From Flavobacteriaceae bacterium NBU2973 (lineage in GTDB: Bacteria; Bacteroidota; Bacteroidia; Flavobacteriales; Flavobacteriaceae), in contig JAOEIQ010000001.1 in NCBI GenBank assembly GCA_026162565.1, forward strand, positions 310,001 through 374,000: a stretch of DNA of 64,000 nt. The letters run 5' to 3'. Positions within the stretch are counted from its first letter, which is position 1; each line of letters opens with the position of its first letter. The position numbers and the translations under genes were made by a program. Shown in pieces: positions 20,420 to 23,486 of the stretch. The notes beneath the pieces were generated by a model. It was not told where the DNA came from, did not search any database, and saw only the letters and a list, made by a program, of their open reading frames with translations.

Positions 20420-21028
20420 ATGGCTTTTGAATTACCAAAATTAGAATACGCTTATGATGCTCTTGAACCTCATATCGATGCAAGAACTATGGAGATTCAC
20501 CATTCTAAACATCATAATGGTTATACAAGTAAACTAAACACTGCAATTGATGGCACAGATTTAGAAGGGAAATCAATTAATGATATTTTAACCAATCTAG
20601 ACATGAGTAATAGTGCTGTAAGAAATAATGGAGGTGGATTTTACAACCACTCTTTATTTTGGACTGTTATGAATCCTGAAGACAGAGGGTATTTGTCTGG
20701 AGAATTAAAAGATGCAATTGAAGCAGAATTCGGATCTAAAGACGCATTTATTGAAGCATTTAGCAAAGCAGCGGCTACTCAATTTGGATCAGGTTGGGCT
20801 TGGTTATGTGTTCACAAAGGAGGAAAAGTTGAGGTTTGTTCAACACCTAATCAAGACAATCCTCTAATGCCAGGAGTTAGCTGCGGAGGAACTCCAATTT
20901 TAGGGTTAGATGTATGGGAACACGCTTATTATTTAAATTATCAAAATAGACGACCAGATTATATAAGTGCATTTTTTAATGTTATAAATTGGAATGAAGT
21001 AGAGCGACGTTACGCCGAAGCAAAATAA
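20420..21028 (+). CDS. Superoxide dismutase [Mn/Fe]
   Basis: 202-residue cytoplasmic Fe/Mn superoxide dismutase that converts superoxide to hydrogen peroxide and oxygen. The start at 20420 ([18 protein letters not shown]) fits the family N-terminus; the upstream ATG at 20381 overlaps the promoter. Metal ligands are visible: His27 in MEIHHSKHH, the His in [11 protein letters not shown], and Asp and His in [10 protein letters not shown]. The sequence [11 protein letters not shown] carries the Gln position typical of Mn or cambialistic enzymes. It ends in a strong terminator shared with the small RNA copy on the other strand. Confidence 0.95.
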
Positions 21029-21048
21029 TATTTTTAATATACATCATT

Positions 21049-21125
21049 AAAAAAGGAGTGCAATTATGCACTCCTTTTTTGTTCCCAAATCTAAACATAA
21101 ACTTAACCTACTTATGTCATGATAT
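21049..21125 (-). ncRNA. Candidate small RNA, tandem copy 1 (diverged)
   Basis: On the minus strand a conserved block (21081-21123) is followed by a terminator hairpin with stem GGAGTGCA/TGCACTCC flanked by six A and six T (21049-21080). The 5' part can fold through ACATAA pairing with TTATGT. The core CATAAGTAGGTTAAGT is identical to that of copies 2 and 3, while the ends have drifted. The terminator also serves sod, which ends at 21028 on the plus strand. No good -7 box was seen, so this copy may be silent. Confidence 0.5.
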
Positions 21126-21164
21126 TTAGTATAACGATACTTTAAACAACATATTATAAAAAAT

Positions 21165-21238
21165 AAAAAGGTGAACTAGAGAAGTTCACCTTTTTGCCCC
21201 AAATCTACCATAAACTTAACCTACTTATGTTATGGTGA
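21165..21238 (-). ncRNA. Candidate small RNA, tandem copy 2
   Basis: A 43-base block (21196-21238) runs directly into a terminator hairpin, GGTGAACT/AGTTCACC with five A and five T (21165-21195). The 5' end folds as ACCATAA pairing with TTATGGT around the conserved CATAAGTAGGTTAAG loop. The block differs from copy 3 at one base of 43. A consensus promoter stands immediately upstream on this strand (TATATTTG at 21249-21242). The 5' hairpin plus conserved linker plus terminator is the layout of an independent small RNA. It may correspond to the Flavo-1 RNA motif reported from Flavobacteria, but I could not check this. Confidence 0.66.
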
Positions 21239-21241
21239 CAA

Positions 21242-21273
21242 CAAATATATACGAGCTTTTAAAACCAACGCAA
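21242..21273 (-). promoter_or_regulatory. Promoter of small RNA copy 2
   Basis: On the minus strand TATATTTG (21249-21242) is a full -7 match. TTG at 21273-21271 lies 21 bases upstream and another at 21268-21266 lies 16 bases upstream. The predicted start, about 7 bases downstream of the -7 box, falls at the edge of the conserved block. Confidence 0.62.
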
Positions 21274-21401
21274 TTTATTAGATGAATAGCTTATAAATCA
21301 GCCTAAAAGAACATGTGTGAAAAATATGTTTATTGCCATATTTAATAGAATTGAGAAGGTAATTTATTAAAAATGAAGAAGTTAATTTTGTAATATGTCA
21401 T

Positions 21402-21476
21402 AAAAAAAGGTGAACAGAAGTTCACCTTTTTTTGCCCCAAATCTACCATGAACTTAACCTACTTATGTTATGGTGA
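21402..21476 (-). ncRNA. Candidate small RNA, tandem copy 3
   Basis: The conserved block at 21434-21476 matches copy 2 at 42 of 43 bases. It is followed on the minus strand by the hairpin GGTGAAC/GTTCACC flanked by seven A and seven T (21402-21433). The sequence upstream holds TACTTTAG, one mismatch from the -7 consensus, at the expected distance. The terminator loops differ between copies while the stems are conserved, which points to structural selection. The region 21239-21401 between copies 2 and 3 holds nothing else that I can identify. Confidence 0.62.
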
Positions 21477-21587
21477 ATCTAAAGTAGACCGATTTTAGAG
21501 AAGAATAGCTATTTATTAGATAAACGGTATTTTTTTTGGGTTAAAATCCGTTTTTCATAGATTAAATGTTAATAATGAGTTATTTAA

Positions 21588-23486
21588 CTAGTAGGCACGC
21601 TCCTTATTTCCTTCATAAAAGTTTATAAAAGCTTTATTAGAAACTCTATTCCCACCAGGAGTTGGATAATCTCCTGTAAAGTACCAATCACCTAAATTTT
21701 TAGGACAGGCTTTGTGTAGGTTTTCTACGGTTTGAAAAATGACTTCTACCTCTGCATTAACAGATGTATCACATATAAGTTCAGCAATCTTATTAGAAAT
21801 TTCTTCTGGAGTAAATTGCTCATAAAATGCTTTAACATGATTAGTTACTTTGTGGTCTTTAAAATCCTCTTCAGATTTACATTTTTTGTAAACCGATTCT
21901 ATAACCGCTTCTTTTTTATTTTCTTTTAGTAATTCTAAAGTAGCTCTAAATGCAACCAGATCTTCTAGTCTTGCCATATCAATTCCATAACAATCAGGAT
22001 AACGAATTTGAGGAGCAGATGAGACTACTATAATCTTTTTAGGATTTAGGCGATCCATCATTTTAATAATACTCTTTTTTAAGGTGGTACCTCTTACAAT
22101 ACTATCGTCGATAATAACAAGGTTATCTGAATGCTTAATTACTCCGTACGTAACATCATATACATGAGCCACTAAATCATCTCTGCTGCTATCTTCAGTA
22201 ATAAAGGTTCTAAGCTTTACATCTTTAATAGCAATTTTTTCTATTCGAGGTCTTTCAGATAAAATATCTATAACGGCCTCTTTAGATAAACCACCTTTAC
22301 CATCTAGTATAGCTTGAGTCTTTTTTGAATTTAAATAGTCTTCAACTGATTCAATCATTCCAAAGAATGATGTTTCAGCCGTATTAGGAATATAAGAGAA
22401 AACGGTATTTTTAGTATCCTTATTAATAGCTTTTAGAACATTAGGCATTAATAATTTACCAAGTTCTTTTCGCTCTTGATAGATTTCGGCATCACTTCCA
22501 CGAGAAAAATAAATCCGTTCAAAAGAACACGCTTTTCTTTTTAAAGGCTCTATTATTTTTTTGATTACAGTTTTTCCAGATTTTTTTGTAATGATGGCAT
22601 GTCCTGGTTCTAACTCTTTAACATCCTCAAAATTTACATTAAAGACGGTTTGTATTACTGGGCGTTCTGAAGCTACCACAACCACTTCATCATCTTTATA
22701 ATAATAAGCAGGTCTTATGCCAGCAGGATCTCGAAGGACAAAGGAATCACCATGACCTAATAAACCAGCCATAGCATAACCACCATCCCAATTTTTAGAA
22801 GATCGTTTTAATATTTTGGCAATATTTAATCGTTCTGCGATTAATGGTGAGCTTTCATTTTTACTGTAACCTTCTTTTTTTAGATCTTTATAAATTTTTG
22901 AAACTGCATCATCTAAAAAATGGCCAATCTTTTCCATAATAGTAATAGTATCGGCTTTTTCTTTAGGATGTTGTCCTAGCGCAACTAAACCATCAAATAA
23001 TTGATTAACATTCGTCATGTTAAAATTACCAGCAAGAATTAAATTTCTATGCTGCCAATTATTTTGACGTAAAAATGGATGAACGCTTTCTACACTATTT
23101 TTGCCAAAGGTGCCATAACGAACATGCCCCAAAAGCAACTCACCTATGTAAGGAATATTTTTTTTCTGAAGAGCTACATTAGTTTGATATTCTGGATTTT
23201 CAGTTAAATCCTTATTAATACGAGCATTAATTTGAGCAAAAATATCTTGAATGGGTTGTTGAGCGATAGATCTAACACGACTAATGTAACGTTCTCCTGG
23301 AGACGTGTCTAATTTAATACTTGAAAAACCCGCACCATCTTGTCCACGATTGTGTTGTTTTTCCATCATTAAATACATTTTGTTTACACCATAAAATGCA
23401 CTACCATATTTTTCTTTGTAATACTCAAGAGGTTTTAAAAGTCTAATTAATGCAATTCCACATTCGTGTTTTAAAGCGTCACTCAT
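21588..23486 (-). CDS. purF: Amidophosphoribosyltransferase-like protein (PurF family, long form)
   Basis: Class II glutamine amidotransferase fused to a type I phosphoribosyltransferase. PurF makes 5-phosphoribosylamine from PRPP and glutamine, the first step of purine synthesis. The putative nucleophile is Cys9 in HECGIAL. The PRPP motif appears as LVIIDDSIVRGTT, and the substrate loop as RDPAGIRPAYYY. At 632 residues it is about 120 longer than usual PurF, with insertions in both domains (for example residues 60-110). No propeptide is evident unless the first eight residues are cleaved. It lies in a purine cluster (purN at 25176). A second, standard purF may exist elsewhere, so the exact role is less sure than the fold. 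Confidence 0.85.
   Translation of the reverse strand: MSDALKHECGIALIRLLKPLEYYKEKYGSAFYGVNKMYLMMEKQHNRGQDGAGFSSIKLDTSPGERYISRVRSIAQQPIQDIFAQINARINKDLTENPEYQTNVALQKKNIPYIGELLLGHVRYGTFGKNSVESVHPFLRQNNWQHRNLILAGNFNMTNVNQLFDGLVALGQHPKEKADTITIMEKIGHFLDDAVSKIYKDLKKEGYSKNESSPLIAERLNIAKILKRSSKNWDGGYAMAGLLGHGDSFVLRDPAGIRPAYYYKDDEVVVVASERPVIQTVFNVNFEDVKELEPGHAIITKKSGKTVIKKIIEPLKRKACSFERIYFSRGSDAEIYQERKELGKLLMPNVLKAINKDTKNTVFSYIPNTAETSFFGMIESVEDYLNSKKTQAILDGKGGLSKEAVIDILSERPRIEKIAIKDVKLRTFITEDSSRDDLVAHVYDVTYGVIKHSDNLVIIDDSIVRGTTLKKSIIKMMDRLNPKKIIVVSSAPQIRYPDCYGIDMARLEDLVAFRATLELLKENKKEAVIESVYKKCKSEEDFKDHKVTNHVKAFYEQFTPEEISNKIAELICDTSVNAEVEVIFQTVENLHKACPKNLGDWYFTGDYPTPGGNRVSNKAFINFYEGNKERAY

Follow-up and report, generated by a model that had tools for sequence, protein, structure and literature searches.

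A family of probable small RNA genes arrayed in tandem between purF and sod in the Flavobacteriaceae

The window, the whole stretch of DNA that was analyzed, comprises 64,000 nt of the genome of Flavobacteriaceae bacterium NBU2973 (contig JAOEIQ010000001.1, positions 310,001-374,000), and all coordinates given here are window positions. It contains two genes that we take to be purF (21588-23486, minus strand) and sod, for a superoxide dismutase (20420-21028, plus strand), as delimited by the list of open reading frames and by synteny. The gap between these convergent genes carries, at 21049-21476 on the minus strand, a unit of about 75 nt that is present three times, as judged from its sequence and its inverted repeats. 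Each unit is built in the same order: a sigma-A type promoter that is clear in two of the copies, a 5' hairpin, the linker AGATTTGGGG, which is nearly invariant and predicted to be unpaired, and an intrinsic terminator. The 17-mer CATAAGTAGGTTAAGTT at the heart of the unit is found without change in all three copies (21451-21467, 21213-21229 and 21100-21116 in copies 3, 2 and 1, respectively). In the copies that have not diverged, and in those related to them, the conserved block reads CCAUAR-CAUAAGUAGGUUAAG-UUYAUGGUA(A)GAUUUGGGG; a perfect terminator hairpin and a T run come next. An earlier note on this DNA had described three minus-strand blocks of about 75 bases with a common core; all three were located by a covariance model of the family, which scored copies 3, 2 and 1 at 82.3, 74.2 and 61.3 bits, while the next match in the same genome reached only 19.4 bits. 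Consequently, by this family-model search, the copy number in the genome is three, and all copies reside in the purF-sod gap.

The inferred transcript of copy 3, the purF-proximal one, spans 21403-21476 on the minus strand. It is preceded by a -7 box, TACTTTAG (21479-21486), that agrees with the consensus TAnnTTTG at five of six positions, and further upstream by tandem direct repeats with the 20-bp period of the family (21515-21547), which were placed from the family consensus and from the offsets of a self-shift comparison. Its predicted 5' hairpin with the loop GUAGG occupies 21445-21474 and has thin covariation; the unpaired linker, a proposed seed on the grounds of its conservation, the predicted fold and the pairing tests described below, lies at 21435-21444, and the terminator, visible as an inverted repeat, at 21402-21433. 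Copy 2, in the middle, has an inferred transcript at 21165-21238 that is likewise predicted to fold, a promoter box TATATTTG at 21242-21249 with a perfect match to the consensus (6/6), upstream direct repeats placed at 21277-21309 from the family offsets, the same linker at 21197-21206, and a terminator at 21165-21195; all of these features are on the minus strand. The full promoter and the near-identity of two blocks (42 of 43 bases) that the earlier note had reported thus hold, as copies 3 and 2 differ at one of 48 bases. A generic scan of the Escherichia coli type called the terminator of copy 2 as the sole one, and it found two promoters where 4.6 were expected, hence no excess.

Copy 1, the sod-proximal one (inferred transcript 21049-21124, minus strand), is diverged and degenerate. 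Its promoter box matches at no more than four of six positions and is displaced by four bases from the usual position, the outer stem pairs are lost, and no upstream repeats were seen by eye. Its terminator (21049-21080) differs in sequence from the other two and has kept its pairing, so that all three copies show, after a short linker, a perfect hairpin of 13-14 bp followed by a T run, just as had been claimed. Copy 1 may be decaying. Since T runs are present on either strand of its terminator, this element could serve sod as well, and copy 1 is perhaps kept because its terminator also ends sod transcripts. The predicted folds of the three copies, with z-scores of -3.7, -4.5 and -5.2, all show the 5' hairpin and the terminator with an unpaired linker between them.

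The unit recurs in other genomes. With one mismatch allowed at most, the core pattern was detected in 28 of 60 genomes, and 26 of these are among the 37 members of the window's own family, the source genome included; the matches in these 26 genomes are exact in most cases and frequently in tandem, and the two matches outside the family (L005, L032) both stand without the other elements of the unit. When named genomes were scanned for an exact 24-mer, at least 117 stretches were returned, and the 80 matches listed carry either genus names of the Flavobacteriaceae or labels of uncultured Flavobacteriia, Bacteroidetes or Bacteroidota. A covariance model was trained on 25 diverse copies, and the searches with it used strict filters, at the cost of weak matches; under these filters, 259 of 298 sampled Flavobacteriaceae genomes, representing 166 of 187 genera, contained up to seven matches each. 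The corresponding samples of the order and the phylum yielded matches in 32 of 196 and 15 of 198 genomes, respectively, all of them Flavobacteriaceae, and eight listed Flavobacteriaceae of the order sample were without a match at this stringency.

The genomic address of the unit is largely constant. Of 143 loci, 125 show purF, 112 show sod and 99 show both genes; in some of the loci lacking one neighbor, the available stretch ends before that gene could appear. Wherever seen, purF lies upstream and is co-directional (125/125), sod lies downstream and is convergent (112/112), and in all 99 loci with both genes the copies sit between them in this single arrangement. Copies at other sites occur: one locus (L017) has neither purF nor sod nearby, and second sites exist in five genomes (G005, G006, G007, G014, G024). 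A tally of 173 arrays, which counts some genomes twice and includes some arrays cut by the ends of the loci, comprises 73 single, 45 double and 29 triple arrangements, together with 14, 9 and 3 arrays of four, five and six copies; the median spacing of copies within arrays is 207.5 bp. Judged by sequence and gene order, this is a conserved family whose main address is the purF-sod gap, where it has been multiplied in tandem. The block sought in other Flavobacteriaceae therefore recurs together with its hairpins and promoters, and not as bare copies at random positions.

The two structural elements differ in how firmly they are established. A perfect terminator hairpin is present in 304 of 305 copies, and in an alignment of 25 copies, two-sided changes affect 10 of 11 pairs in the terminator and 0 of 10 in the 5' hairpin. 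The compensatory change that had been noticed between the terminators of the window's copies is present there and much stronger across genomes. A larger alignment was fitted to the model; in it, all five covariation measures of the whole structure exceeded those of 500 out of 500 shuffles; controls slid by +2 and +3 gave 79 and 84 cells with two-sided change versus 65 in the true register, while their pairing dropped from 91.8% to 48-60%. For the 5' hairpin, the larger alignment contains two-sided changes in 3 of 11 pairs, each confined to one or two copies. An inner pair fails to form in 28 of 131 copies, which by inspection are mostly of the CATTAG type. Divergent copies are predicted to refold into the common shape. 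One of them (L006:1143-1217) has compensatory changes in its 5' hairpin, and in another (L094:2419-2493) the spacer before the linker is lengthened by A residues. We regard the predicted terminator as proven by covariation and the 5' hairpin as likely. The near-invariant sequence spans about 36 nt, stems included, and its two fixed boxes are separated by a spacer whose length differs by 0-3 A residues.

Upstream of the block, the TAnnTTTG box is matched at all six positions in 145 and at five in 177 of 333 distinct copies (322 in total), compared with 4 and 56 of 333 shuffled stretches, counts that are not independent of each other since the copies share ancestry. In 277 of the 333 copies, the distance from the start of the box to the core is 19 bases, and from this fixed place we infer that transcription starts close to the beginning of the conserved block. 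A promoter box at a fixed distance combined with a terminator is the layout of an intrinsically terminated, sigma-A-dependent small RNA gene of the Bacteroidota.

Further upstream, recognizable tandem direct repeats with a 20-bp period precede the putative promoter of most copies: in 294 copies, a set that excludes the class with the linker GATTTGGGA, the segment from -81 to -67 shares an identity of 0.513 with the stretch 20 bp downstream, versus 0.22-0.35 at other shifts. The LytTR consensus, taken at a 21-bp spacing only, was matched with up to three mismatches in 66 of the 294 copies versus 34 of 294 shuffled ones, at scattered positions. In the GATTTGGGA-linker lineage, a TTATTTCCCACAATACCAGTA-like element is instead conserved at the last copy (42.6 bits within -50 to -20, 42 distinct sequences); last array copies with this element are found, for instance, in L010, L022 and L031. 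The copies of the family thus have their predicted output in common and differ in their predicted input. A search for the upstream repeats elsewhere gave matches in 22 of 31 genomes, a backwards control also matched in many of these, and no regulator gene stood out in the 31 genomes searched. Elements of the form TTTATCGA-N12-GC-TTTATCGA, akin to the repeats upstream of the small RNA, were noticed before other genes around position 1501 of three loci (L278, L287, L298). At least two genes behind TTTATCGA-type elements look secreted, and backwards controls match here, too; these elements could represent a regulon of the same activator.

Taken together, we consider each copy to be a small RNA gene in its own right, about 75 nt long, with a probability of about 0.93, because the conservation of the family, its fixed synteny, the promoter box, the covariation of the terminator and the refolding of divergent copies all point in this direction. 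The earlier proposal of an independent, multicopy small RNA family is borne out in that many genomes carry the predicted hairpin, promoter box and terminator at one place.

With regard to known RNAs, the whole window has no match to an Rfam 15 family at or above gathering, and this covers the check that had been suggested for the array. The region gave 27 weak matches, all below the cut-offs and mostly terminator-like; the best by E-value was STnc250 on the plus strand (E 0.0089; 25.7 bits versus a cut-off of 42). The earlier note had left the choice between the Flavo-1 motif and something new. Only the latter stands: Flavo-1 (RF01705), likewise a flavobacterial RNA motif, has no match at the array at its 42-bit gathering score and is absent from the 27 weak matches, and the four Flavo-1 matches above the cut-off in the same genome (L302-L305) lie elsewhere. 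A description of the family was not found in the open-access literature searched; subscription papers or supplements may hold one. Small RNAs have been mapped in Flavobacterium psychrophilum, with 85 newly described RNAs (PMC9723704), and in F. columnare (PMC5395568), and the main-text parts of these two papers do not describe the array family. The main text of the former does not mention purF, superoxide, paralogs or copies. Rfp18 of F. psychrophilum, new in that study, is a conserved flavobacterial small RNA described as pairing through a third stem-loop (PMC9723704), whereas the array RNA has two predicted stem-loops; the difference from Rfp18 is one of described structure, and the family may be identical with another Rfp transcript. 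The family is new in that it is absent from Rfam 15 at gathering scores, and its tandem layout at a fixed site is unusual; the general kind of small RNA is known.

The closest parallel in layout is offered by the CiaR-dependent csRNAs of streptococci. These RNAs and the array are not known to have any sequence in common. According to the csRNA paper, several alike csRNAs are encoded per genome, each with two stem-loops around a conserved unpaired region and with direct repeats upstream, in bacteria described as lacking hfq (PMC3091779); the array RNA, in its predicted folds, also has two stem-loops with a conserved unpaired stretch between them. The likeness is one of layout. The csRNA repeat is TTTAAG-N5-TTTAAG and the csRNA seed is complementary to the Shine-Dalgarno sequence and the start codon, whereas the array repeats follow a different consensus with a 20-bp period, and the array linker is AGAUUUGGGG. 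The main text of that paper never uses the word tandem, in contrast to the tandem order of the array copies.

Chaperone proteins were sought by profile searches. Hfq was detected in none of 40 genomes, 25 Flavobacteriaceae among them, with five control genomes positive. The RRM_1 domain was likewise detected in none of the 25 Flavobacteriaceae genomes, the source genome included, with Bacteroides ihuae as a positive control, and it was found in 4 of 15 genomes from other families of the order. The core is present in 17 of these 25 Flavobacteriaceae genomes. A diverged chaperone that escapes the Hfq and RRM_1 profiles is possible.

Possible targets of the linker were assessed in 2.46 Mb of sequence (the window and 120 stretches taken from six genomes) with 1812 crudely called gene starts, 1803 of them usable. 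The complement CCCAAATC occurs six times between -45 and +25, versus 0.8 occurrences expected from composition. For the whole conserved block, 8-mer matches amounted to 146 versus 102.2 expected for form A and 144 versus 150.4 for the Flavobacterium form, and most of the excess comes from the start codon. The 14-nt linker gave 147 matches at or below -10 kcal in the window from -45 to -5, compared with 114.6 in dinucleotide-shuffled windows; this was the sole clear excess among five windows tested, and it is borderline, as 2-3 of 60 permuted linkers equalled the ratio. Because the GCAA of this linker pairs with the promoter TTTGC, it was trimmed to the 11-nt UAGAUUUGGGG, a post hoc step taken after this pairing had been noticed. 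In the same -45 to -5 window of the 1803 genes, the trimmed linker gave 135 matches versus 124.0 in shuffled windows at -8 kcal, 77 versus 60.7 at -9, 35 versus 24.9 at -10, and 19 versus 8.9 at -11; permuted linkers equalled these ratios in 2 of 60 cases at -8 and in 0 of 60 at each of the three stricter thresholds. The excess is confined to windows between -60 and +10, and farther out the counts are at or below those of shuffled windows. It amounts to about 10 genes, and 29 of the 35 matches at -10 kcal stem from three of the six genomes.

Segments of the loop and of the hairpin arms showed no enrichment as a seed in these start-region tests. A first linker test with mono-shuffled queries had looked strong; its control breaks the GGGG run, and it was replaced. 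Among the neighboring gene starts, pairing was favorable for purF, pfkB and acpP, not for purN, fabF and uvrD, and hardly for sod, and it was discarded as evidence since, by eye, it is largely that of GCAA with the promoter TTTGC. A gldK-like and a gldM-like gene (gliding and type IX secretion; L366:3600-5880) have the seed complements TTAACCTA and CCCAAATC just before their starts. Each of these complements was found in one genome, the start region of another close gldK (L286) has TTAACCT, and the cases are too few to count. Starts that resemble signal peptides are found in 26 of the 60 best predicted targets and in 645 of all 1803 genes, which is no clear difference. An inverted repeat downstream that would pair with the linker was dismissed as a general feature (9 of 333 copies versus 2.5 expected; by eye in few copies). 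Complements of the linker appear modestly enriched just upstream of start codons, and the support that this lends to pairing is only suggestive.

We propose the following course of events. A TAnnTTTG promoter at a fixed distance would produce an RNA composed of the GUAGG hairpin, the unpaired linker and the intrinsic terminator, and an activator would bind the direct repeats that precede most copies. The copies would then answer one signal, and their number would set the dose; in one lineage, the sod-proximal copy with its own promoter element would add a second input. The linker would then pair with mRNAs just upstream of their start codons and block the access of ribosomes, possibly in the manner of the streptococcal csRNAs, that is, without Hfq or an RRM protein. 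Of the mechanisms considered, pairing of the linker with mRNAs has the best support, at about even odds, and we place the combination of small RNA genes, shared activator and linker pairing, the best explanation of the whole, on the same evenly balanced footing.

The invariance of about 36 nt exceeds what a 10-nt seed needs, which speaks against pairing, and for this reason protein titration is the main rival, doubtful as it is. CsrB and RsmZ RNAs titrate an RNA-binding protein, and the GUAGG loop and the G-rich linker might similarly bind a protein that is soaked up by the tandem copies. It is the sequence, and not the structure alone, that is near-invariant, in the stems as well; the two fixed boxes with their variable A spacer resemble two binding modules, and a copy number between 1 and 7 fits a dosage effect. 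However, each RNA has one set of motifs rather than many, there is no candidate protein, RRM_1 and Hfq were not detected in the genomes searched, and the excess of linker complements is specific to the positions before start codons. That the elements act in cis only, terminating purF and sod and forming their 3' ends while the block serves in processing or attenuation, would account for the invariable position downstream on the purF strand and opposite to sod, as well as for a sod-proximal terminator that could act both ways. A terminator needs no two to seven promoter-bearing copies, though, and this reading is improbable in the light of the separate promoter boxes and of the copies at second sites or away from purF and sod.

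A distant kinship with FopS/GibS of Bacteroides, with action through UUCAUGGUA..AGAUUU, is very improbable in our estimation. FopS (RF04319) was the best-scoring Bacteroidota small RNA among the weak matches (BTnc060 reached 17.5 bits on the opposite strand), and its matches of 22.8 and 23.2 bits, which align precisely this stretch, fall far below the gathering score of 56, so that membership in this family was rejected. Measured against 5000 shuffles, the best pair of forms was reached by 27 of them, while the other five pairs were weaker or not significant (177, 380, 2182, 2604 and 2937); the short similarity is a weak lead. FopS is multicopy, has a promoter, a seed and a terminator, and acts with the RRM protein RbpB (PMC11697453); FopS/GibS and the array are alike as multicopy Bacteroidota small RNAs with a sigma-A promoter, a conserved 5' part, a terminator and a short shared stretch. 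In contrast, the 5' part of FopS is single-stranded and contains the R1 seed, whereas that of the array RNA is predicted to fold as a hairpin, and the array differs further in its tandem order at one main site, its matches in the Flavobacteriaceae only, and the lack of a detectable RRM_1 protein in the 25 family genomes searched. RF04319 matched none of 80 genomes drawn from the phylum. On contigs filed under viruses, 45 stretches (L227-L271) also contain the FopS-like sequence, and many of them have, by eye, a promoter-like TTTG before it and a hairpin after it. Finally, we deem it highly improbable that the units encode small proteins or are mere repeats at the DNA level. Across the 41-nt block, two antisense frames are free of stop codons in 325 and 303 of 333 copies, and the repeats do lie at one place; the antisense stretch tested, however, has only 13 codons, in which the two types differ by one base. 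No conserved sense frame exists among the 333 copies (open in 3, 0 and 0 of them), the internal ATGG enters differing frames (MVRFG in 178, MVDLG in 148 copies), and the promoter-terminator layout is fixed.

Post-transcriptional control in the Flavobacteriaceae is little charted, and most of the sampled genomes carry a unit to which no Rfam 15 family corresponds. With a single locus and a single bait, this near-invariant small RNA would provide a handle on RNA regulation in these abundant bacteria and on any protein substitute for Hfq, and the natural series of one to seven copies would permit the study of why small RNA genes amplify. Read at its widest, and this we suggest tentatively as a possibility, the array would be a family-wide core regulator: a near-invariant small RNA in tandem copies, under a dedicated activator, that would govern the translation of many mRNAs together with a novel RNA-binding partner, since neither Hfq nor an RRM chaperone was detected in the genomes searched. 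If this is true, its targets would perhaps include mRNAs for the cell envelope and for gliding and type IX secretion.
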